DNA of 31,109 bases from a virus. Location: positions 1 to 31,109 of IMG/VR virus record IMGVR_UViG_3300049596_001374, one strand, 5' to 3'. Numbering within the stretch: the stretch's first letter is position 1; each line of letters opens with the position of its first letter. Of this stretch, positions 2,372-27,125 are shown in pieces. The notes below the pieces were generated by a model. The model searched no databases and had not been told where the DNA came from. It worked only from the letters and a program-made list of their open reading frames with translations. The position numbers were made by a program, and so were the translations under genes.

Positions 2372-2728
2372 ATGACATTTGAAAAATTTAAACTAGTGAT
2401 TGACCAAATGGTTAATAATTCCAAAAAAATATCTACTACGTATGATAATGGTATAGATTTAATTGACTTTACCGATGGTTATCATACTATTATTCATCAC
2501 TTATTGGAAGAAATATTGCACCCAGACGGTTTATCATGGCTAGACTGGTTTCTATATGAAAAGGACTATATTCATGATGGTATTGGAAGATCTGATATTA
2601 GTGCATTTGACCGTGAATATAATCCATTAACTAATGAAAAGACTGAGGTCGAGATTATTAAAAATCTTGAAGAATTACATGAATATTTAACCCAAAACAA
2701 CTATTTTAAATGCGAAAGCCTGAAATAA
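2372..2728 (+). CDS. Conserved-looking hypothetical protein, 118 aa
   Basis: Acidic, mostly helical soluble protein with an aromatic-rich centre (HPDGLSWLDWFLYEKDYIHDG, residues about 50-70) and a C-terminal helix containing NLEELHEYL. No catalytic motif or signal peptide was recognised. Its last 19 bases overlap the start of the topoisomerase medium-subunit gene in another frame, so the two are almost certainly translated from one transcript and perhaps coupled. Small proteins of this pattern (long helix, WFLYEKD-like core, ELY/ELHEYL tail) appear to me to be widespread in phages without a known role; that is recollection, not a search result. It could be a topoisomerase accessory factor by position only. 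Confidence 0.72.
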   Translation: MTFEKFKLVIDQMVNNSKKISTTYDNGIDLIDFTDGYHTIIHHLLEEILHPDGLSWLDWFLYEKDYIHDGIGRSDISAFDREYNPLTNEKTEVEIIKNLEELHEYLTQNNYFKCESLK

Positions 2729-4074
2729 AAACAGTAACTGACTATTTAGATAATGACTATAAAGAATACGCAGTATATGTTGTAGAAGAGAGAGCAATAC
2801 CTTCAGTGATCGATGGATTTAAACCAACCCAACGTAAAGTAATTTTTGTTGCAAATAAAGTTTGGAGAAATGGTTCTGAGAAGCCAATGAAGATATTTCA
2901 ATTAGCTGGTAGAGTTGCAGCAGATGCTTTTTATCATCATGGAGATGGATCTCTTAATTCTGCGATTGTTGGAATGGCTCAAAAATTTAAAAACTCAATG
3001 CCAGTATTAGAAGATATTGGCCAGTTCGGTTCATTACGTTCTCCTGAAGCAGCGGCCCCTAGATATATTGCAACTAAACTGCACAAGAATTTTAGATTAT
3101 TATATAAGGATTTTGAATTACTTGAGTCTAGATATGAAGAAGGTAATGAAATTGAACCTAAATTCTTTCTTCCAATTATCCCTACTGTTCTTCTAAATGG
3201 TGGTAGTGGGATCGCAGTTGGATTCGCAACAAATATATTAAATCGTAATCCATTGCATCTTATAGAAGCTTGTTTAAAATCACTAGATGGAAAAGCATAT
3301 TCTGAGCCTTCTCCATGGAATAGAGAATTTGATGGGTCCTGTGATTTAGTAGATTCAGAAAAGTTTTCTTGGATCTTTGGTGGAAAATATGATGTTAAAA
3401 ATACAACAACTGTTTCTATTACAGAATTACCTCCATCTATTACATATGAAAAATTTGATCAACATCTAATTGATTTAGAAGATACTCGACGAATTGCAAG
3501 TTATGAAAATAACTGTAAATCAAATATTAATTATACTCTTAAGTTTAGGAGAGAAGATTTAAAAACGTTATCTGACTCAATTAAGCTAAAGAGATTATTA
3601 AAGATGGAAGAACGTCAAACTGAGAATTTTACAGTACTTGATGAATTTGGTCGATTGAAAATCTTTACTTCAGCTAGTGAAATAATTGAATATTTTGTAA
3701 AATTTAGGCTTACTTTCTATGATAAGCGTAAACAATATATTATTGATACTCTAACTCAAGAGTTATTAGTTTTATCAAATAAGGCTAGATTTATTAACGA
3801 TATTATTAATAATAAACTTAAAATTAATAATGTTCTTAAAAAAGAAATTGTTCTATATTTACAAACTGCTGATTTTGATGAAGTAAATGGATCATACCAA
3901 TATTTACTCTCTTTACCGATCTATACATTAACTAAGGAGACATATGAAGATTTACTTAGTACTGTTTTAACTAAAGAATTAGAATTAGAAGAAATTAAAA
4001 AGAGACTTCCAGTTTCAATGTATCGAGAAGATTTACAAGAATTAAAAAAAGCATTACAAAAAGAATATAACTAA
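2710..4074 (+). CDS. 52: DNA topoisomerase II medium subunit (gp52-type)
   Basis: DNA-cleaving subunit of the phage type II topoisomerase, homologous to GyrA/ParC. At 454 residues it is close to the known length of T4 gp52 (about 440). The N-terminal part has the classic GyrA-like signature, with IPSVIDGFKPTQRKVIF at about residues 30-46 and a winged-helix region with the catalytic tyrosine Y119 preceded by R118 (in AAPRYIAT). FLPIIPTVLLNGGSGIAVGF (about 153-172) is the hallmark tower-adjacent segment. A helical coiled-coil C-terminal arm ends the protein; there is no gyrase-type C-terminal wrapping domain, so ATP-dependent relaxation or decatenation rather than supercoiling is expected. The gene overlaps the preceding small ORF by 19 bases. 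Confidence 0.95.
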   Translation: MRKPEIKTVTDYLDNDYKEYAVYVVEERAIPSVIDGFKPTQRKVIFVANKVWRNGSEKPMKIFQLAGRVAADAFYHHGDGSLNSAIVGMAQKFKNSMPVLEDIGQFGSLRSPEAAAPRYIATKLHKNFRLLYKDFELLESRYEEGNEIEPKFFLPIIPTVLLNGGSGIAVGFATNILNRNPLHLIEACLKSLDGKAYSEPSPWNREFDGSCDLVDSEKFSWIFGGKYDVKNTTTVSITELPPSITYEKFDQHLIDLEDTRRIASYENNCKSNINYTLKFRREDLKTLSDSIKLKRLLKMEERQTENFTVLDEFGRLKIFTSASEIIEYFVKFRLTFYDKRKQYIIDTLTQELLVLSNKARFINDIINNKLKINNVLKKEIVLYLQTADFDEVNGSYQYLLSLPIYTLTKETYEDLLSTVLTKELELEEIKKRLPVSMYREDLQELKKALQKEYN

Positions 4075-4080
4075 AATATT

Positions 4081-4341
4081 ATGAAAAAATTATTTATTGC
4101 AATCAATCTTATTCTATTAGTTTCATGTACAGAAAATGCACGAGTAAAAAGCTTTGGCGGAACTGGCGATATCAATTTACCTACTGGACAAAAATTAGTA
4201 AATGTAACTTGGAAGGAAACTCAAATTTGGTACTTAACTCGTAAAATGAGAGCAGGCGAAACTGCAGAAACATACCAATTCCAAGAAGAGTCTTCATGGG
4301 GAGTAGTTGAAGGAACTTACAATATTATCGAATCAAAATAA
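4081..4341 (+). CDS. Small lipoprotein with lipobox
   Basis: 86-residue protein with a typical lipoprotein signal: MKK, a hydrophobic core, then LVSC with the lipid-bearing cysteine at residue 16. The mature part is about 70 residues, with beta-strand-like segments (LVNVTWKETQIWYLTRKM) and a GETAETYQFQEESSWG stretch. It probably sits on the periplasmic side of a host membrane. It begins seven bases after the topoisomerase subunit and 17 bases before an RlpA-like exported protein, so the two envelope proteins may act together, for example in lysis or superinfection exclusion; that role is inferred from context. The protein family was not recognised. Confidence 0.75.
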   Translation: MKKLFIAINLILLVSCTENARVKSFGGTGDINLPTGQKLVNVTWKETQIWYLTRKMRAGETAETYQFQEESSWGVVEGTYNIIESK

Positions 4342-5549: not shown

Positions 5550-6170
5550 TTATTTTTGAAAATACTTAGCTATTCGATTGCTTAGTCGAACTCTAGGATC
5601 GTCTATATCTCGTGATAATATTTGGTATGGTAACATGAAACCAAAACTAAGCACTATTCGTCTTGACTTAAATGGATTTGGCGTCCAGTGTTTATATAGG
5701 CTTGCCTCAAAGCAATACATATCAGACTTACTAATAGTTAGAGTATCGGAGTCAATGCAAAAATCATATGGTTCTGCAAGTACACTAATATTACACTTAT
5801 AGTTAATGTAGCCCTCTACTGCAGCATCATAATGTTTCTGTATCTTTCCTCCAGTAGACATATCAACTGCTTGTAAAAAACTATTGTCTACTGGTATATT
5901 TAGTTGGCCACTAATCTTGTCTCTAAGCGTGTAAATAAATTGAGGTACTTCATTCTGTACTACGCTAGATATTGACTGAAAATCAGTGATGTAATTAGTT
6001 AGTTTAGTATTTGAAAGATCAAACATTGCACTACCTCCATTTAGAGACTTTGATAATTTATCTAGGTGATAATTAGGTTTTCCTAGACTAAAATCTAGAG
6101 TGGCTACCCAGTCAACTATTTGAGTAGTCTCCTCTCTATCTATAAAATTTTTAAAATGAAGGTAACTCAT
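5550..6170 (-). CDS. 2-oxoglutarate/Fe(II)-dependent oxygenase (prolyl-hydroxylase-like)
   Basis: 206 residues with the double-stranded beta-helix signature of Fe(II)/2OG dioxygenases. The metal ligands are visible as HYD (H113, D115), and the distal histidine is H161 in LYKHWTPN. The 2OG-binding arginine is R170 or R171 in SRRIVLSFGF. A helical N-terminal half precedes the catalytic core. These enzymes hydroxylate proteins, nucleic-acid bases or small molecules; the substrate here is unknown. It is the last gene of the head-gene block, sharing a 4-base ATGA overlap with the upstream small gene and followed by a terminator. Placement after capsid genes allows modification of a virion or host protein; nucleobase modification is the alternative. 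The fold call is good, the substrate open. Confidence 0.78.
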   Translation of the reverse strand: MSYLHFKNFIDREETTQIVDWVATLDFSLGKPNYHLDKLSKSLNGGSAMFDLSNTKLTNYITDFQSISSVVQNEVPQFIYTLRDKISGQLNIPVDNSFLQAVDMSTGGKIQKHYDAAVEGYINYKCNISVLAEPYDFCIDSDTLTISKSDMYCFEASLYKHWTPNPFKSRRIVLSFGFMLPYQILSRDIDDPRVRLSNRIAKYFQK

Positions 6171-6499
6171 TTTCCCCAGTTAGATTTGATTCGTTTTAAT
6201 CCATGTTCTTCTAGGAACTCGCTCGGTAATCGATCCTCTTCAATAATAGTATACTGTTGAGAATCTAGCATGTTTTGATGCATCTTTTCGTTTACGTTAA
6301 TAAAGCAAAACCAATGAGTTGCTGGCAATTCTCCAGTTGAGGAAAGCGGTATTTTTAGGTGATCTAATGAAATATCATCACCCTTTTTCTTTTTTAATTC
6401 AAGTAACCCTTCAGTTAATTTGTATTTTGGCAAAACATTAGATGCTCTTTCACGAGCTTCATTAATGTTTACATCTTCACATAGTATACATAATCTCAT
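6167..6499 (-). CDS. Hypothetical protein, 110 aa
   Basis: Small alpha/beta protein starting MRLCILCEDVNINEAR, with a beta strand then a helix, and a central segment SSTGELPATHWFCFINVNE followed by helices ending KRIKSNWGK. Two N-terminal cysteines (CILC) form a CxxC pair without partner cysteines, so zinc binding is not supported. Its 3' end overlaps the oxygenase start by four bases, so the two are probably co-translated and may work together. I vaguely recall similar proteins in other large phages, all without assigned function. Confidence 0.7.
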   Translation of the reverse strand: MRLCILCEDVNINEARERASNVLPKYKLTEGLLELKKKKGDDISLDHLKIPLSSTGELPATHWFCFINVNEKMHQNMLDSQQYTIIEEDRLPSEFLEEHGLKRIKSNWGK

Positions 6500-6513
6500 A
6501 TAATTAAATTTTT

Positions 6514-7437
6514 TTAGAAACGAGTGATTGAAAGTATTGGAGCACCATCGGCTGATGCTATTTCTAAATCTTTAACTAACGTCAAATAGTAAGGCGCAAC
6601 TGCTCCGCCAGTTTCAGTGTCCATTTTAAATAGTCCAATACTATAGTTATTTTCAGAATCTAACCATCCTGCATCTACATATACTACACCTTTGTGTTCA
6701 ATTGCTCCAAATACAGTATCAATTGAAACAATATTTGGTTCACTTGGTGAGGGAACTAATATATTGCTATAGGTAAACGTACCTGTCTCAATATCAAATG
6801 GACCAGTAATAAAACCTGATGAAATATCATTTGCCGCAATCGCCCAAGTAGCTTCGTCATAGATGAATAAATTCCTAAGCGTATATCCTGCTTCCTCTGG
6901 ATCTACTTCTGAAACTTGAGTTGCAGTCGCAACGTTTGGTAAAAGTGGGTCTAACTCGATTCGAACAATACTGCTAACTGCTTTTTTAAAGAAGTTATCC
7001 AAGTAGATAAATTTTCCGTCCCCTTCATAATAGAGAGAAGAGGCACCTTTTACAGTATAATCTGAAATATTATTCTCAATAATTGTAAAGTTTCGTGTAG
7101 TGCGATCAATTCTTATAAAGTAAATTTCACCAGCAAAATCAACTATTGCATATAGAAATCCATCGTCTGTGTTCAAGGTGATTTGTGTAATCTCAGGAAA
7201 TGACTCATAATTAAACGACCAAACATTCTCGCCTCTGCTTAAGCTATATATAAGACCATCTTGACCTACTCCATATAAACCATTTAACTGATCTAGACTT
7301 CCACCAGCTACTCCAGCAACTGCACTTGATGATCTAGCATAAGCCATCATCGCTTGTTCAAATAGCTCACGCTCTTCAAATCTTTTTCTAGATTCTCTTT
7401 GTTCAGGAGTTTCATGTCCCCAATTAATATATGACAT
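6514..7437 (-). CDS. Probable beta-propeller-like virion protein
   Basis: 307 residues. A charged helical N-terminus (ETPEQRESRKRFEERELFEQ, about 9-28) and an Ala/Gly/Ser linker precede a long beta-rich region. That region has blade-like repeats: GLYGVGQDGLIYSLSRG, then GFLYAIVDFAGEIYFIRID, GKFIYLDNFFKKAVSSIVRI, LRNLFIYDEATWAIAA and KGVVYVDAGWLDSENNYSIG. This looks like a WD/Kelch-type propeller, though no named family was recognised. It lies between the Dps-like gene and small genes downstream of the major capsid gene, so a head-decorating or structural virion role is plausible. A host-surface-binding protein is the alternative. Confidence 0.65.
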   Translation of the reverse strand: MSYINWGHETPEQRESRKRFEERELFEQAMMAYARSSSAVAGVAGGSLDQLNGLYGVGQDGLIYSLSRGENVWSFNYESFPEITQITLNTDDGFLYAIVDFAGEIYFIRIDRTTRNFTIIENNISDYTVKGASSLYYEGDGKFIYLDNFFKKAVSSIVRIELDPLLPNVATATQVSEVDPEEAGYTLRNLFIYDEATWAIAANDISSGFITGPFDIETGTFTYSNILVPSPSEPNIVSIDTVFGAIEHKGVVYVDAGWLDSENNYSIGLFKMDTETGGAVAPYYLTLVKDLEIASADGAPILSITRF

Positions 7438-7447
7438 AGTATTTTAA

Positions 7448-7816
7448 TTATTTTAAAGTTAATAAATATTTAAGTTTATTAATAGCACTTAGCATCTCAT
7501 CTCTAAGATTTAATAGATCGCTATCTTGGTTACTATCTAGCTTATGGTTTAAAGATAATAAGAATTCAGTAATAGTCCCTAAGAATTCCTCTATATTAAC
7601 TTCTCCAATATTTCCTAATAAGATAGCATCATGTTCTCCTTCTAGTGCAACTCTTCCGTATTTACCCATGTATGTTTCCATAAATTCATCAGATAAGTCA
7701 CTTAGAGTATCGTATATTCCACCGTATGCAATATGTTTAGCATACGACTGAGTCTGCCAATGGAATACTTTAAATTGGGATTGTATTCCTAAAAATGTTG
7801 ACATTAAACTTGTCAT
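7448..7816 (-). CDS. Dps/ferritin-like helical protein
   Basis: 122 residues from the ATG at 7816, predicted to form a four-helix bundle. The first helix carries FLGIQSQFKVFHWQTQSYAKH, followed by GGIYDTLSDLSDEFMETYMG; the K..HWQT...H and D..DE...E spacing is that of Dps/ferritin-like proteins. It matches phage proteins I remember under DUF5856. An upstream in-frame TTG (7852) would add 12 residues, but it lies before the late-promoter-like element (7827-7839), so the ATG 23 bases downstream of that element is preferred. Dps proteins bind DNA and oxidise iron; whether this one does is unknown. Position just after the capsid gene terminator suggests late expression and possibly packaging with the DNA. 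Confidence 0.65.
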   Translation of the reverse strand: MTSLMSTFLGIQSQFKVFHWQTQSYAKHIAYGGIYDTLSDLSDEFMETYMGKYGRVALEGEHDAILLGNIGEVNIEEFLGTITEFLLSLNHKLDSNQDSDLLNLRDEMLSAINKLKYLLTLK

Positions 7817-7896: not shown

Positions 7897-9534
7897 TTAG
7901 ATTGATATTTGTGCAGTAGAACCTGTAAGAACTCCAATAGCTGCTGGATCAATTTCCATATTCAAGTATTGAGTTTCAGGGTGCCATCCTGCTTCAGTAA
8001 TCGCGTATCTTGATTTCATACCGATTTTTGGAGAGAATGTACCTTCAGAGATAGTCTGTAAAGACTCAGCCATGATGTATGGCATGAATTTTACTCCTGG
8101 CTCTTCGTCAGCTCCTTTACGACCAATAGCAAGTCTTGAATCTCCCCAAGATAAGTTAGGGTCAACATAAACTTGTACACCGTAAACTTTACCAGCTGGG
8201 TATAAGTTACCTGCAACACCAGTCATATCAGTTGGAACTTGTGCAATTGAGTAACCAGCAACGTCAGCTAATGCAGAAGCAATACGACCGTTAGTTACCA
8301 TGAAAGTACCAGCTCCGAAACGACCTCTGTGATAGATTAAGTTAGCAAGTTCAAGAACTTTAGTAACTAATCTTCTTTGTAATGTAGAAGTGTTATCAAA
8401 TCCACCAGAAGTTAAGTTAAGAGTAGTAATGTCTGCACCTTCAACTAATGCGATTTCAGCATTATGGTAATCAGCCATTTGGAATACTCTATCAACTAAT
8501 CTTTTGTTGATTGATTGAGCTAAATCATTAACTGCAACGTTCTCTAACATAGAGATAACGTCATAATTCCAAACTCTGTTTAAGTCTTGGATTTGCTCAA
8601 CTGTTGCAGAAATAGATACTTGATCAGTTTCAGCTTCAACAAATTTAGTGAACATTCTTAATCCCATTTGACGGAATTTAGAGTTTTCACCAGCTTCTCT
8701 TTTCATAGAGTTAACAACACCACCAGTAGTTGGTAAATAAGAACCAGACCAGTTGTCACCAGCGTAAGAATCATCAGAAGATGATGTGAAACCAGAAATA
8801 TGATTTTCTAAAGCAGAAACTAAAGAAACTCCATCAACATCTTTATTTGCAAGTTTACCACCGATCGTTACAGTAAATCCTGTATATTCAGCGTCAGCAG
8901 TAGTTGCACCACCTACAGAAGAATCATTAATAATTTTAATAATTACTGTACCGTCTACACGTGAATAACCAACGAATTCAGCTGTGAAATCACCAGAACC
9001 ACCAACAACTGCGTTACCAGATGCAAGATCTCCAACAAAGTTAGTTGATTTAAGACCTTCTAATTTTACCATATATGGATCAAATGCAGAACCGTCAGTT
9101 CTACCACCTGCATATAAGTAATCTAAGTAAGGTAAGAATCCTACTGGAGAATCCATAGGGATAACTGGAACTAAGTCAAAACCAATTGTTTTAGCAGCAA
9201 CTTGAATTGCAACTGGTAACAAAGATGGAAACTTATCTCCTGATCCTGAATCAGCACCACTAGTTTTAGCACCATTGAAGAATGGAGTTTGAGATCCTGT
9301 TGGAGCTACTGGGGTACCCATATAACTTCCTAAAGAACCTGGTGTTTGAAAAAATACACCTGGAGCAGTGTTTTCGAAAAGTGGTGTAGTATTATCAAAG
9401 ATTGCGTGGTTGTGAGCATACTCAGCTAACCATGGAGTCTTAGTAATATCAGCACCATGTCCTTCCAAAATTGGCTTCCATGTGTTTGTCAAGCGAGCAT
9501 CGCTTGAGCGTCTAAAAATTTTAGTACGTGCCAT
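7897..9534 (-). CDS. 23: Major capsid protein (gp23-type)
   Basis: 545 residues, close to the length of T4 gp23 (521). The T4-family core is plain: LLPVAIQVAAKTIGFDLVPV at about 105-124, then PMDSPVGFLPYLDYLYAGGR (126-145), and later the conserved C-terminal half with KIGMKSRYAITEAGWHPETQ. It has the HK97 fold in this family. T4 gp23 loses its N-terminal segment to the gp21 protease at (L/I)-x-E sites; candidates here are ILE/G after E24, LAE/Y after E38 and LFE/N after E54. The gene directly follows the protease-scaffold gene, as in T4, and ends at a strong terminator. Codon choice looks more GC-rich than neighbouring genes, as expected for a very highly expressed protein. Confidence 0.96.
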   Translation of the reverse strand: MARTKIFRRSSDARLTNTWKPILEGHGADITKTPWLAEYAHNHAIFDNTTPLFENTAPGVFFQTPGSLGSYMGTPVAPTGSQTPFFNGAKTSGADSGSGDKFPSLLPVAIQVAAKTIGFDLVPVIPMDSPVGFLPYLDYLYAGGRTDGSAFDPYMVKLEGLKSTNFVGDLASGNAVVGGSGDFTAEFVGYSRVDGTVIIKIINDSSVGGATTADAEYTGFTVTIGGKLANKDVDGVSLVSALENHISGFTSSSDDSYAGDNWSGSYLPTTGGVVNSMKREAGENSKFRQMGLRMFTKFVEAETDQVSISATVEQIQDLNRVWNYDVISMLENVAVNDLAQSINKRLVDRVFQMADYHNAEIALVEGADITTLNLTSGGFDNTSTLQRRLVTKVLELANLIYHRGRFGAGTFMVTNGRIASALADVAGYSIAQVPTDMTGVAGNLYPAGKVYGVQVYVDPNLSWGDSRLAIGRKGADEEPGVKFMPYIMAESLQTISEGTFSPKIGMKSRYAITEAGWHPETQYLNMEIDPAAIGVLTGSTAQISI

Positions 9535-9563: not shown

Positions 9564-11534
9564 TTACAATCTAGAATTTGCGCCTCTTAGCATCATTTCT
9601 AGGTAATTTTGAGAGTATCCTCTCTGCATCTCAACAACCTGATTTACAGGTACTAGGCCTTCTGTACTTTGGCTTTCGTTGAGTTGCTTTTGTAATTTTG
9701 TATTATTCTTTTCGATTTCAATTCTTTCATTGATTCCTCTCATATCCATTTCGTCCCAAAACGCTTTAACTTGATATGGAGTGTTTACTGTATACAATTG
9801 AGCTTTTGCATGAATTTTAGCTTTTTCATTTTCATTCATCTCATTCCAAGTTGGTTTGTATTCAGCTGGCATAAATCTTAAGTAAGTTGGGATATTTTGT
9901 TCTTTATGGTTAACTACTGCTTCCATAATTCCAACAACATCCGCTTCATTAAACCATACTGCTCCGTTTAAAGCTTCAACAATTGCTTGTTTAGTATTCG
10001 ATTCTAATGCAAAGAAAGATTTTTTATTGTCTTCTCCAATAACCTTTAAGAAAGGATATTTGTTTTCAAGAACTGCTTTAGAAGATTTATCATTTACTTC
10101 AGTAATTACTTGGTCAACTTTGCTAATTAATGAATCGATTGAATTAGATTCGTCGATTTTACTTACTCCGTTCATAATATTTCTTTTATTTACTGTTGTT
10201 CCATCAGTTAAAGATTCTGCAATATACTCAGAGTAACCAATTGATTCGCTAAGTTTATTAGCAAGATATTGTGCGTAATCACGGTTTTGATTAACAGATT
10301 CAGCAAGATATTCTGAGAATTCAATTCCACGATTTGCGCCTTCAGCAACATATTCAGTATATTGAATATTTTTATCTAACTCCTCAGCTAAATAATTTTG
10401 ATATTTAATAGATCCGTTTACACTTTCTTTAATGTATTCAGTATAGTTAATCGTTTGATTTACTTTTTCTCCTAAATAATCTTGGTAATTAACTGATTGA
10501 TTTAATTTTTCTCCAAGGTAAGAAGAATAATCAATTGCGTTATTTGTAGTTTCTGCTACGTGTTCAGAATAACGAACTGATTCATTTAATTTGTTAGAAA
10601 GATAATCAGTGTAATTAATTACTCCCTCTAATGATTCTGCTAAATAGTTAACAAAATTAACCAATTCAGATTGATCAGTTCCGTTTTGAGCAGATTCAAG
10701 AATAGATTTGTGCCCTTTTAATTCTTTCTTAATTCCAGTAAATTGGGTTTTAAGAACTTCTGAGTACTTATCCATTTGTTCTTTTGTTACAAACTCGGCC
10801 ATTGTATTATTATTTTTTTGTTCTTGCAAAGTTCCTTGGAATTCTAATCCTGAACTATTTTCTAAATTATTTATCTTATAAACTTTAAAATTATCTGCAA
10901 AGTTTAAACTTTCTGAAATATCCATTAATCCAGCTTTGTGAATATATGAATTTTCTTTCATTGTATTATAACTTTCATTAATCATTGAGAAATCAGTTTT
11001 CAATGATTCACTAACTGTTTTACGTAAAACTGCTTCAGTAAATCCAGGTTCACCTACTAAATCATAAGTAAAAATTCTTTGTAATTTAACTGTTCCACTT
11101 TCACTAACTTGACCAGCTGCTCTACTTGAAGTAGATAACTGTACTCCTCCATCAAGCAATGCTTTTGCTAATTTACCGTGTGGTGTATTTTCAAGCAATC
11201 TAACTTTGATGTATACTTTATTTCCTCCATCATAAGTTAATCCTTCAATAATATGTGAAGCTTCACTTAATTTTGGTTCAAAGTGTTGTGGATGATCTAC
11301 TGTTCCTACTAATTGTCTTTTAGCTATCTTATCCTGTAAATAAGAAAGGTGAGGAAGATATTCAGATTTTTCGTAAACTCTTCGGTTGTTATTCATTTCA
11401 CCGAATACTGCACAGATTCCTTCAAGAACAGTTCCATTTGAAGAAGACTCCTTTACTTGAAGTTTTTCACCAACGTTCTCAACAATTAATAACCAATCAT
11501 TGTTATTAGTTTGTGCTAAATTTTGATTTGTCAA
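9564..11534 (-). CDS. 21: Prohead core protease fused to scaffold-like repeat region (gp21-gp22 type)
   Basis: 656 residues. Residues about 35-175 are a T4 gp21-type serine protease, with catalytic His81 in VDHPQHF, Ser137 in STSSRAAG and probably Asp158 in YDLVGEPG. A linker with several (I/L)-x-E sites leads to a helical part resembling a scaffold. Residues 292-445 are eleven tandem units of exactly 14 residues, typified by YLGEKLNQS and YLAES. In T4 the scaffold gp22 is a separate gene chopped up by gp21; here both seem to be in one frame. Met245 (10802) could start a separate scaffold product. The start is TTG at 11534: a stop lies closely upstream and no ATG occurs before residue 47, inside the protease fold. 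Confidence 0.88.
   Translation of the reverse strand: MTNQNLAQTNNNDWLLIVENVGEKLQVKESSSNGTVLEGICAVFGEMNNNRRVYEKSEYLPHLSYLQDKIAKRQLVGTVDHPQHFEPKLSEASHIIEGLTYDGGNKVYIKVRLLENTPHGKLAKALLDGGVQLSTSSRAAGQVSESGTVKLQRIFTYDLVGEPGFTEAVLRKTVSESLKTDFSMINESYNTMKENSYIHKAGLMDISESLNFADNFKVYKINNLENSSGLEFQGTLQEQKNNNTMAEFVTKEQMDKYSEVLKTQFTGIKKELKGHKSILESAQNGTDQSELVNFVNYLAESLEGVINYTDYLSNKLNESVRYSEHVAETTNNAIDYSSYLGEKLNQSVNYQDYLGEKVNQTINYTEYIKESVNGSIKYQNYLAEELDKNIQYTEYVAEGANRGIEFSEYLAESVNQNRDYAQYLANKLSESIGYSEYIAESLTDGTTVNKRNIMNGVSKIDESNSIDSLISKVDQVITEVNDKSSKAVLENKYPFLKVIGEDNKKSFFALESNTKQAIVEALNGAVWFNEADVVGIMEAVVNHKEQNIPTYLRFMPAEYKPTWNEMNENEKAKIHAKAQLYTVNTPYQVKAFWDEMDMRGINERIEIEKNNTKLQKQLNESQSTEGLVPVNQVVEMQRGYSQNYLEMMLRGANSRL
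10200..10661 (-). repeat. Eleven in-frame 14-residue repeats in scaffold region
   Basis: Encodes residues 292-445 of the protease-scaffold protein. Every unit is 42 bases, with no indel between units. The pattern is hydrophobic-x-Tyr-x-x-Tyr-(L/V/I)-(A/G)-Glu followed by five variable residues. Nine of eleven units have Glu at position 9; units 2 and 10 have Asn. Fourteen residues equal two heptads, fitting a coiled coil. The DNA has diverged, so this is an old protein repeat rather than a recent duplication. Confidence 0.88.
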
Positions 11535-11546
11535 AGCCCAAAATAT

Positions 11547-11559
11547 TTTTTATTATTTA
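11547..11559 (-). promoter_or_regulatory. Candidate late promoter for protease-scaffold gene
   Basis: Exact minus-strand TAAATAATAAAAA, 25 bases before the TTG start at 11534. It lies between the DnaJ stop and the head protease gene and would drive protease-scaffold and gp23 expression. Confidence 0.45.
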
Positions 11560-11580
11560 TTATGGCTTTATTAAAACTTT

Positions 11581-12579
11581 TTAAGATTTATTTTCGCAAT
11601 CCAATATTAGTGATTTTAATTTAATAGAATCATCTTTGTCTAGTGATTCAATATTAGGTAACATAACGTTAAACTTTACGAAATATTCACCTAATTTATT
11701 GGATTCATCAAGTAAGCCTTCATTAGGAATTGTGAACTTTAATCGACTTACTGATTGTGGTTGATTGAAATCAACTTCGTATTTTTTATTTACAATTGTC
11801 TCTACTTTTATTTTTTCACCACTAAATAATACTTTACTTAATGGTATTGGAATAATCTGAATAATTGAATTTCCTTCAATTTGAACATCATCAGGTATTT
11901 CTAATTCTAGTGTTACATGTAGATCTCCAATTAGTGGGACCTGTTCAATATCTCCCCATATATTTAATTGAGTAGTAACCTCTTCATTTCCTAATTTAGG
12001 TACTCTTGCAGAAACAGTATATGCTCCTCCATCTTTCTTAATAATAATATATTTCTTTCTTAAGTCAATTGTAATTGCAATATCCCGTTCCTCTACTTCA
12101 GTATCGTATGATAATAAACTACCGTTTTTTCCAGTATAAGTTATTTTTTGTCTACTGAAATTAAGTTCAATTTTTTTACCTAACATTGCATCAGATAAAG
12201 TTATCTTATCATTTAAATATATGTTTAGGTGATCTGTGCTTGGCGGTGGTGCATGTTGTCGACCTTGTGATTTTCTTGCATAGTCAGATGACCGTTTTCT
12301 AAAATCACCAGTTCCAAAGTTATTTACAAAATCTTCAAACCCAAATCCTCCAGTATTAGTCTTAGTTCTATTTGTAAATCTAGACGAGTCATACGTTTTT
12401 CGTTTTTCTTCATCACCAAGTATAGAATATGCATCAGAAACCTTTTTAAACATTTCTTCAGACTCTTTATTTCCTCCATTTTTATCTGGATGATGTTTTA
12501 TTGCAAGTTTACGATATGCTTTTTTTATTTGATCTGGGGTTGCTGTATTTTGGACTCCAAGTATTGAATAATGATCCAT
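11581..12579 (-). CDS. dnaJ: DnaJ/CbpA-type J-domain co-chaperone
   Basis: 332 residues. An N-terminal J domain (1-66) has the HPD motif at 30-32, which stimulates Hsp70 (DnaK) ATPase. A Gly/Phe-rich segment follows (77-92, [13 protein letters not shown]), then a beta-rich C-terminal substrate-binding region (about 120-325). The four CxxCxGxG zinc repeats of DnaJ proper are absent, so this is a type II protein like CbpA. It is the first minus-strand gene before the prohead protease and capsid genes, which suggests that it recruits host DnaK to help fold or assemble head proteins, in place of or beside the GroEL route used by T4. That role is inferred from position. Confidence 0.9.
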
Positions 12580-26516: not shown

Positions 26517-27125
26517 TTAAGAAATCATTGAGCTATTTATTAGATTGTTTAGCATTTGATTGAATTCTTCAATACTGTCATCATTAAATCTATTAGTCAT
26601 TCTCGTAAATTCATTATTTCGAGTAGAATCATTGATCTCATTTTTAAATTCTGAAAAGATTCTTTCAAATAATTCTTTCTCAGCATCTGCATTTTCGAAA
26701 TTACTAAAATAGTCTTTTTCACGTTTTACTATTTCAATCTTATCTGCACGATCAATATACACAACTTTACTATTTTGGTAAAGATCACTAGTTAAAATCT
26801 TTTGAAACTCGTTAAGTAGTCTAAACTGATCCATGCGTTCTCTGTAGATTGACCATACATATGCTGAAAAAATACATCTATCAAATATTAAAATTTGATC
26901 CTTTAATAAAGATTGATTTAACTCAAGGATAGTCATTACATTTGCAATACTAAAATAGTGTACTCCTGGACCAGTATCCTGATCTCTCATTCCAAGTTCA
27001 TCAATATATTTTGCAAATTGAAATTTATAATAGTGAACCTTTGGATTAGTATTTTGCTCAAGGAATTTCTCAATCAAATGAGTTTTTCCACTATGTCGAT
27101 GACCTTCTATAATAATTAATGGCAT
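26517..27125 (-). CDS. P-loop kinase (thymidylate kinase-like)
   Basis: 202 residues. It begins with a strand and Walker A, IIIEGHRHSGKTH (G8 to T15), then a FDRCIFSAYVW segment (D82, R83) in the place of the DR(Y/F)..S motif that binds the nucleotide acceptor in thymidylate and deoxynucleoside kinases. A helical lid region with REKDYF (residues about 144-149) follows. It most likely phosphorylates a nucleoside monophosphate. Because it is flanked by a HAD phosphatase-like protein (one base away) and a ligase-like protein, a polynucleotide 5'-kinase role is an alternative. The sequence alone does not settle the acceptor. Confidence 0.75.
   Translation of the reverse strand: MPLIIIEGHRHSGKTHLIEKFLEQNTNPKVHYYKFQFAKYIDELGMRDQDTGPGVHYFSIANVMTILELNQSLLKDQILIFDRCIFSAYVWSIYRERMDQFRLLNEFQKILTSDLYQNSKVVYIDRADKIEIVKREKDYFSNFENADAEKELFERIFSEFKNEINDSTRNNEFTRMTNRFNDDSIEEFNQMLNNLINSSMIS

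Follow-up and report, generated by a model that had tools for sequence, protein, structure and literature searches.

The Locus and Its Relatives

The window, which is the whole stretch of viral DNA analysed here (31,109 nucleotides), contains at 9564-11534 a single open reading frame that lies on the minus strand, a strand assignment that corrects the earlier description. From a candidate TTG start at 11534, this frame encodes 656 amino acids, in which a prohead protease is fused to a putative scaffold. The fused gene is followed by the gene for a major capsid protein of the gp23 type (7897..9534, minus strand; Pfam Gp23, E = 5.4e-34), and no open reading frame of the window encodes a separate scaffold between the protease and capsid genes, the place that gene 22 occupies in T4. 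A gene for a DnaJ-type co-chaperone lies directly upstream of the fused gene (11581-12579, minus strand). On the plus strand, the subunits of a T4-type type II topoisomerase are encoded by two genes (363-2225 and 2710-4074) with an open reading frame of 118 amino acids between them.

The closest named relatives are "uncultured phage" genomes of 462-735 kb (LR756500-LR756504 and LR745206), and to our knowledge, no member of the clade has been cultured. For comparison, more than 180 IMG/VR loci were gathered. Fusion and repeats occur together in all 138 distinct complete genes of the repeat type, those of the 462-735 kb huge phages among them, and the runs of units are mostly gapless. Genes for ribosomal protein bS21 are present in seven of 14 related records (G001, G003-G007, and G013) and none was found in the window fragment; these genes fit the published description of bS21-encoding Bacteroidetes phages (PMC9723584).

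The Protease Domain

The N-terminal part of the protein is, by its sequence, a member of the S77 (T4 gp21-type) protease family. Residues 32-146 match Pfam Peptidase_S77 (PF03420) above the cut-off (E = 1.4e-8), and residues 3-403 match the head maturation proteases of PHROG 207 (E = 1.7e-32). The protease also matches PDB 5jbl by profile (E = 2.8e-6), and the same structure is the top Foldseek match of the protease model (E = 1.7e-8), with herpesvirus proteases next. Pfam, profile and Foldseek place the S77 domain at residues 36-172 (11019..11429, minus strand). Together with the periodicity described below, the Pfam and PHROG matches bear out the sequence-only reading, in which a gp21-type protease continues in frame into an array of eleven 14-residue repeats with no gaps. 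The fusion as such is not new, since PHROG 207 already spans it and a UniProt protein of 83% identity is labelled "Peptidase U9, T4 prohead protease". In the open-access literature (subscription papers being outside the scope of the search), no paper was found that describes huge phages with a fused protease and scaffold or with scaffold repeats of 14 residues.

Of the two catalytic residues named earlier, H81 and S137, the histidine stands and the serine probably needs revision. H81 (11292-11294, minus strand), the counterpart of T4 H85, is invariant in 78 aligned relatives. S136 and S137 are both invariant as well and correspond to T4 S140 and S141. PDB 5jbl carries Ala at both T4 H85 and T4 S140, and because this S140 is the first serine of the "SSR" motif, the probable nucleophile is S136 (11127-11129, minus strand) rather than S137.

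The Repeat Array

Eleven 14-residue units make up residues 293-446 (10197..10658, minus strand), starting at residues 293, 307, and so on to 433, with no gaps between them. Within residues 285-450, identity at a lag of 14 is 0.30, whereas the other lags below 24 give 0.006-0.13. The array was absent from the Tandem Repeats Finder output for the DNA, indicating that it is a repeat at the level of the protein. Nine units carry a hydrophobic-x-Glu triplet, with Glu exactly where it had been read before (300, 328, 342, 356, 370, 384, 398, 412, and 440); the other two have Asn at 314 and 426 and an L-x-E four residues later, at 318 and 430, and with these included, every unit in the window has one [LIV]xE. 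The [LI]xE triplet occurs nine times in residues 285-450 against 2.75 expected from composition, a count that none of 2000 shuffles reached. A specificity of the phiKZ type, [SAG]xE, was also considered and was rejected, as this motif is enriched nowhere in the protein.

The regularity extends to the relatives. Spacing from unit to unit is 14 in 1481 of 1495 cases and 21, 28, 35 or 42 in the remaining 14, and all spacings are multiples of seven, as expected of a heptad coil. A search for relatives that keep the repeats without conserving hydrophobic-x-Glu showed instead that the motif is kept: Glu occupies position 8 in 94% of units, and none of the other 13 positions carries as much information, a result that also holds when positions 6-8 are ignored during unit detection. 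Where the position-8 site is missing, a site tends to appear four residues on. [LIVM]xE is found at position 12 in 42 of 99 units that lack the position-8 site, versus 32 of the 1534 units in which that site is present; among distinct units, E12 is present in 43% of those without E8 and 4% of those with it (P = 7e-21), recreating L-x-E. This replacement, which recurs across several clades and unit positions, includes the exceptions of the window (E318 and E430). Of the 74 distinct units without E8, 42 are also without E12.

In T4, the protease gp21 cleaves on the C-terminal side of L/I-x-E and thereby digests the scaffold gp22 (PMC9026906, PMC9958956), and scaffolds of the T4 type are broken down at many L/I-x-E sites (PMC9026906). 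In T4 gp22, there are 16 [LI]xE triplets versus 5.8 expected. The proposal that the array is a ladder of cuts was strengthened by the comparison: the Glu is kept, lost sites reappear four residues on, and the capsid protein has the same motif. Because the conservation of Glu and the E12 replacement are joined by sites of the processing type elsewhere in the protein and by a matching capsid site (see below), self-cleavage along the array appears well supported but unproven.

Alternatively, one Glu per unit may be a structural or charge feature, involved in salt bridges, solubility or a capsid-binding motif (YxxYLAE), with the scaffold leaving the head whole or being cut only at E208 and E462. 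We consider this rather unlikely, though several observations agree with it. Glu is also frequent at unit position 4 (63%), and two cuts, at E208 and E462, could be enough to release and trim the scaffold. Furthermore, E9, which makes no L-x-E, rises in units without E8 (18% versus 2%), indicating that part of the Glu shift may be charge compensation. Position 8, however, sits 180 degrees from the hydrophobic face of the coil and is the most exposed and yet the most conserved of the unit, whereas conservation is lowest at position 1, which is equivalent to it in the heptad. Moreover, Asp does not substitute for the lost Glu; the loss is compensated mainly by E12, which restores L-x-E, and the breakdown of T4-type scaffolds at many such sites (PMC9026906) also speaks for a ladder of cuts.

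Predicted Processing Sites outside the Array

When all glutamates of the protein are considered, [LIVM]xE is present in more than 70% of the 78 relatives only at E19 (1.00), E208 (0.96), the nine ladder sites (0.71-0.95), E462 (0.89), and E568 (0.72), the figures for E208 and E462 being weighted. The near-invariant sites outside the ladder fall where processing would be expected, namely at the N-terminus, at the junction and just past the repeats. E19 (LIVE/N, the slash marking the predicted cut; 11478..11480, minus strand), where the motif is found in 100% of the relatives, is the likely counterpart of the N-terminal autocleavage site of T4 gp21, LIE9 (PMC9026906, PMC9958956). E208 (ISE/S; 10911..10913, minus strand) is the predicted release site between protease and scaffold, and E462 (IDE/S; 10149..10151, minus strand) directly follows the repeats. 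Two linker sites, E187 and E208, had been proposed previously; E208 is near-invariant, whereas E187 is absent in most relatives.

A corresponding site is present in the capsid protein, for which analysis of N-terminal sites predicts a propeptide cut at LFE54/N (9373-9375, minus strand). All 115 parsed capsid proteins have [LIVM]xE at the N-terminal boundary, 86 of them at one conserved place; the other 29 have Asp at the usual Glu, and all 29 carry a second site just downstream. WLAE38 was rejected as the capsid cut site, since relatives read WLVD, WLTK or WLST there, without the Glu.

Probable Coiled Coil, C-Terminal Domain and Repeat Number

That the repeats form a coiled coil is consistent with the 14-residue spacing (1481/1495) and with an AlphaFold prediction in which the repeat region is all-helical, although the confidence of this model is low (pLDDT about 35-48). 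Past the coil lies a helical C-terminal domain (residues 462-612; 9699..10151, minus strand; pLDDT mostly 70-80) that is common to the fusion proteins of PTm1 (hhalign 97%) and Lak-A1 (hhalign 94%), and is probably the part that binds the shell. Foldseek returned no significant match of the scaffold model in the PDB, and the scaffold part has no detectable sequence homology to T4 gp22 (hhalign probability <1%) or to PAU gp152, a Vibrio phage coil protein, gp67 or gp68. Its position between protease and capsid, its helicity and its richness in L-x-E suggest that it works like gp22; its status as a homologue of gp22 is unsupported.

The repeats had also been taken for a ruler, and a repeat number that sets the size of the head is a notion we now find improbable. 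Tandem repeats usually vary in number. The unit run is 11 in most G1 and all G1b genes, 8-15 in clade G2, 5-9 in G3, and 11-13 in G4; it is near-constant within clades (11 units in 23 of 27 G1 genes, 12 units in 50 of 58 G4 genes), which is notable and gives the ruler partial support. Genomes of 635-735 kb, however, have 11-13 units, G2 contigs no longer than 349 kb have 13-15, and repeats of this kind are absent from the Lak phages, at 540 kb. No trend of repeat count with genome size was found, though most of these sizes are lower bounds, the contigs being mostly incomplete.

A Probable Internal Start Signal

The conservation of synonymous codons peaks at about residues 207-229 in three clades, where the DNA of the window clade reads TATAAGATAAATAAT. 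A late-promoter-like element, ATAAATAA (10867..10874, minus strand), lies within the codons of ...YKINN..., 64 nt before an internal ATG (10800..10802, minus strand) that encodes Met245, the proposed start of a free scaffold of 412 amino acids. An internal Met is found in 137 of the 138 complete genes (133 by regular expression, 4 by inspection). Two internal methionines are well conserved, Met245 (Met in 94% of the 78 aligned relatives, though the linker is variable) and M555 (0.90), which belongs to the conserved C-terminal domain.

The same ATAAATAA is present upstream of the whole gene (11553..11560, minus strand) as a late-promoter-like motif that is enriched upstream of genes of the clade. 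In the window, copies of ATAAATAA(T) at 26517, 22049, 20053, and 11560 on the minus strand and at 4338 and 27711 on the plus strand stand about 18-30 nt before several gene starts, and the motif is probably the late promoter of the window clade. Among 8-mers upstream of genes, the strongest enrichment is that of TAAATAAT/ATAAATAA in clades G1 and G1b and that of GATATATA in clades G2 and G3, with intergenic counts of 36 versus 4.8 expected for TAAATAAT in G1 and 48 versus 1.9 for GATATATA in G2; they are placed mostly 10-40 nt before gene starts. The upstream motif specific to each clade recurs within the coding region of the fusion, at a distance of 37-84 nt upstream of the near-invariant Met, and does so exactly once in 24 of 24 G1 genes. 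Compared with the expectation from synonymous shuffles, the motif is kept in 13 of 13 G1 clusters (1.4 expected), 4 of 4 in G1b (0.5), 11 of 15 in G2 (0.6), and 3 of 4 in G3 (0.7), clusters below 80% identity being counted as independent in the P values. By this comparison, the motif is conserved beyond coding need in G1, G1b and G2, and weakly so in G3.

The huge-phage clade G4 differs. At the corresponding place it has a conserved internal element, TTTAGGATATATGAAATG, that is unlike the G4 upstream motif TTTAATATATA[CG], leaving the claim of an internal promoter unsupported by sequence in this clade. GATATAT was rejected as a G4 promoter motif; its P value of 1e-17 was discarded because the motif had been picked after seeing the internal site and is not clearly enriched upstream (17 versus 11.8), where longer forms are absent. 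In L024-L026 and the G4 loci, strongly conserved synonymous codons, AACTTTAGGATATATGAAATG, occur some 540-630 nt from the beginning of the open frame and are likewise unlike the clade upstream motif. Between the genes of the G4 loci (L114-L193), where the TTTAATATATA[CG] motif is found, TTAATATATA occurs 93 times upstream and essentially never in coding sequence, and AAAAATCCACC is another sequence enriched between genes.

A conserved DNA element followed by a near-invariant Met suggests a nested, separately expressed scaffold: a probable internal scaffold gene, overlooked in the earlier reading, whose start signal in most branches probably makes extra scaffold without protease. It is conceivable that only the full-length fusion is made, each scaffold chain then carrying its own protease, and that the element and Met245 are relics or have another role, for instance in mRNA structure. 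PTm1 is fused and lacks an internal Met close to the junction, indicating that such an arrangement works somewhere, and the poor fit of the G4 element to the G4 promoter motif points the same way. Nevertheless, we hold this to be unlikely in view of the conservation of Met245 inside a variable linker, the retention of the motif in G1 and G2 far above expectation, and the case of L076, in which an insertion shifts the internal ATAAATAA and yet the motif is retained. In T4, the late-promoter sequence TATAAATA spans the stop of gp21, just before gene 22. The nested gene may, consequently, have a simple history, in which the stop of gene 21 was lost and the promoter and start of gene 22 were kept.

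Comparison with Known Systems

The window gene shares with T4 gp21/gp22 an S77 protease in which His and Ser are conserved, the order protease-scaffold-capsid, the L/I-x-E motif (here a predicted cleavage site), an N-terminal L-x-E site, a scaffold rich in L-x-E, and a late-promoter or late-promoter-like sequence shortly ahead of the scaffold start, which in the window gene is a proposed one. It differs in that protease and scaffold are two genes in T4, and gp22 has its L-x-E sites irregularly spaced rather than in 14-residue units and no detectable sequence similarity to the scaffold part.

A nested protease/scaffold arrangement is otherwise best known from herpesviruses, and by analogy, UL26/UL26.5 would be the closest parallel in gene plan. 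There, a protease of related fold is fused to a scaffold with a release site between them, an in-frame inner start codon follows shortly after the release site, and a promoter lies within the coding region, as described in PMC4498786 and its references 5 and 6. The herpesvirus enzyme, in contrast, is an S21 protease with a Ser-His-His triad, and there is a single M-site near the C-terminus of the scaffold rather than one site per repeat, and no 14-mer array.

In the lambda C/Nu3 pair, the scaffold is encoded in frame within the protease gene. Lambda C belongs to another protease family, has no repeat ladder and relies on an internal translation start, whereas an internal late promoter is proposed for the window gene. 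PTm1 (Tenacibaculum), the Lak phages and SP-15 (Bacillus) likewise combine an S77 protease with a long scaffold-like region, and PTm1 and Lak also have the C-terminal domain in common with the window gene. Their middle parts differ from it, consisting of 16-18-residue LSEG repeats in PTm1, of acidic low-complexity sequence in Lak, whose protease also resembles that of the window gene, and of a long coil in SP-15. In the protease gene of Prevotella phage Lak-B5 (L028, about 5926-7700), TAG codons interrupt the frame, and at several of these places Lak-A1 has Gln; no recoding is needed to keep the Lak-A1 gene open, and the pattern fits TAG recoding in Lak-B5.

A Model for Assembly and Clearance

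The best explanation, and one that we regard as probable, is that a T4-type prohead protease (gp21, S77) has been joined in frame to a head scaffold, that free scaffold is also made from Met245, and that clearance of the scaffold takes one cut in each unit. The sequences themselves show the joined gene, the repeats, the conservation and replacement of sites, and the internal element with its Met, whereas cleavage, promoter activity, translation from Met245, assembly of the coil and contact with the shell are inferences. The full-length protein would be built into the prohead core, bringing the protease inside, and the scaffold alone would probably be made from the internal late promoter, so that scaffold can exceed protease. 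The scaffold would form a long coiled coil, each 14-residue unit being two heptads, with the C-terminal domain at the end of the coil probably contacting the shell. After assembly, the protease would activate by a cut after E19, free itself by a cut after E208, trim the capsid protein after E54, and make one cut in each scaffold unit, after (L/I/V)-x-E, yielding peptides of roughly 14 residues that could leave the head before DNA packaging. There is perhaps an even chance that the fuller idea holds as well, namely that this is a herpesvirus-like nested gene of the T4 lineage with an internal late promoter, in which a single repeat serves both assembly length and disassembly, with one cut per two heptads.

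The model bears on how phages with genomes of up to 735 kb, most of them uncultured, build and clear very large heads. The repeat array leads to specific, testable predictions of the bonds that are cut, the lengths of the peptides and the protease-to-scaffold ratio, and a regular scaffold with one cut per unit would be a simple model for relating scaffold length to capsid size. Should the internal promoter prove real, a nested protease/scaffold plan like that of the herpesviruses would be present in most branches of this T4-type lineage, which would bear on whether this plan is of ancient origin or arose more than once.
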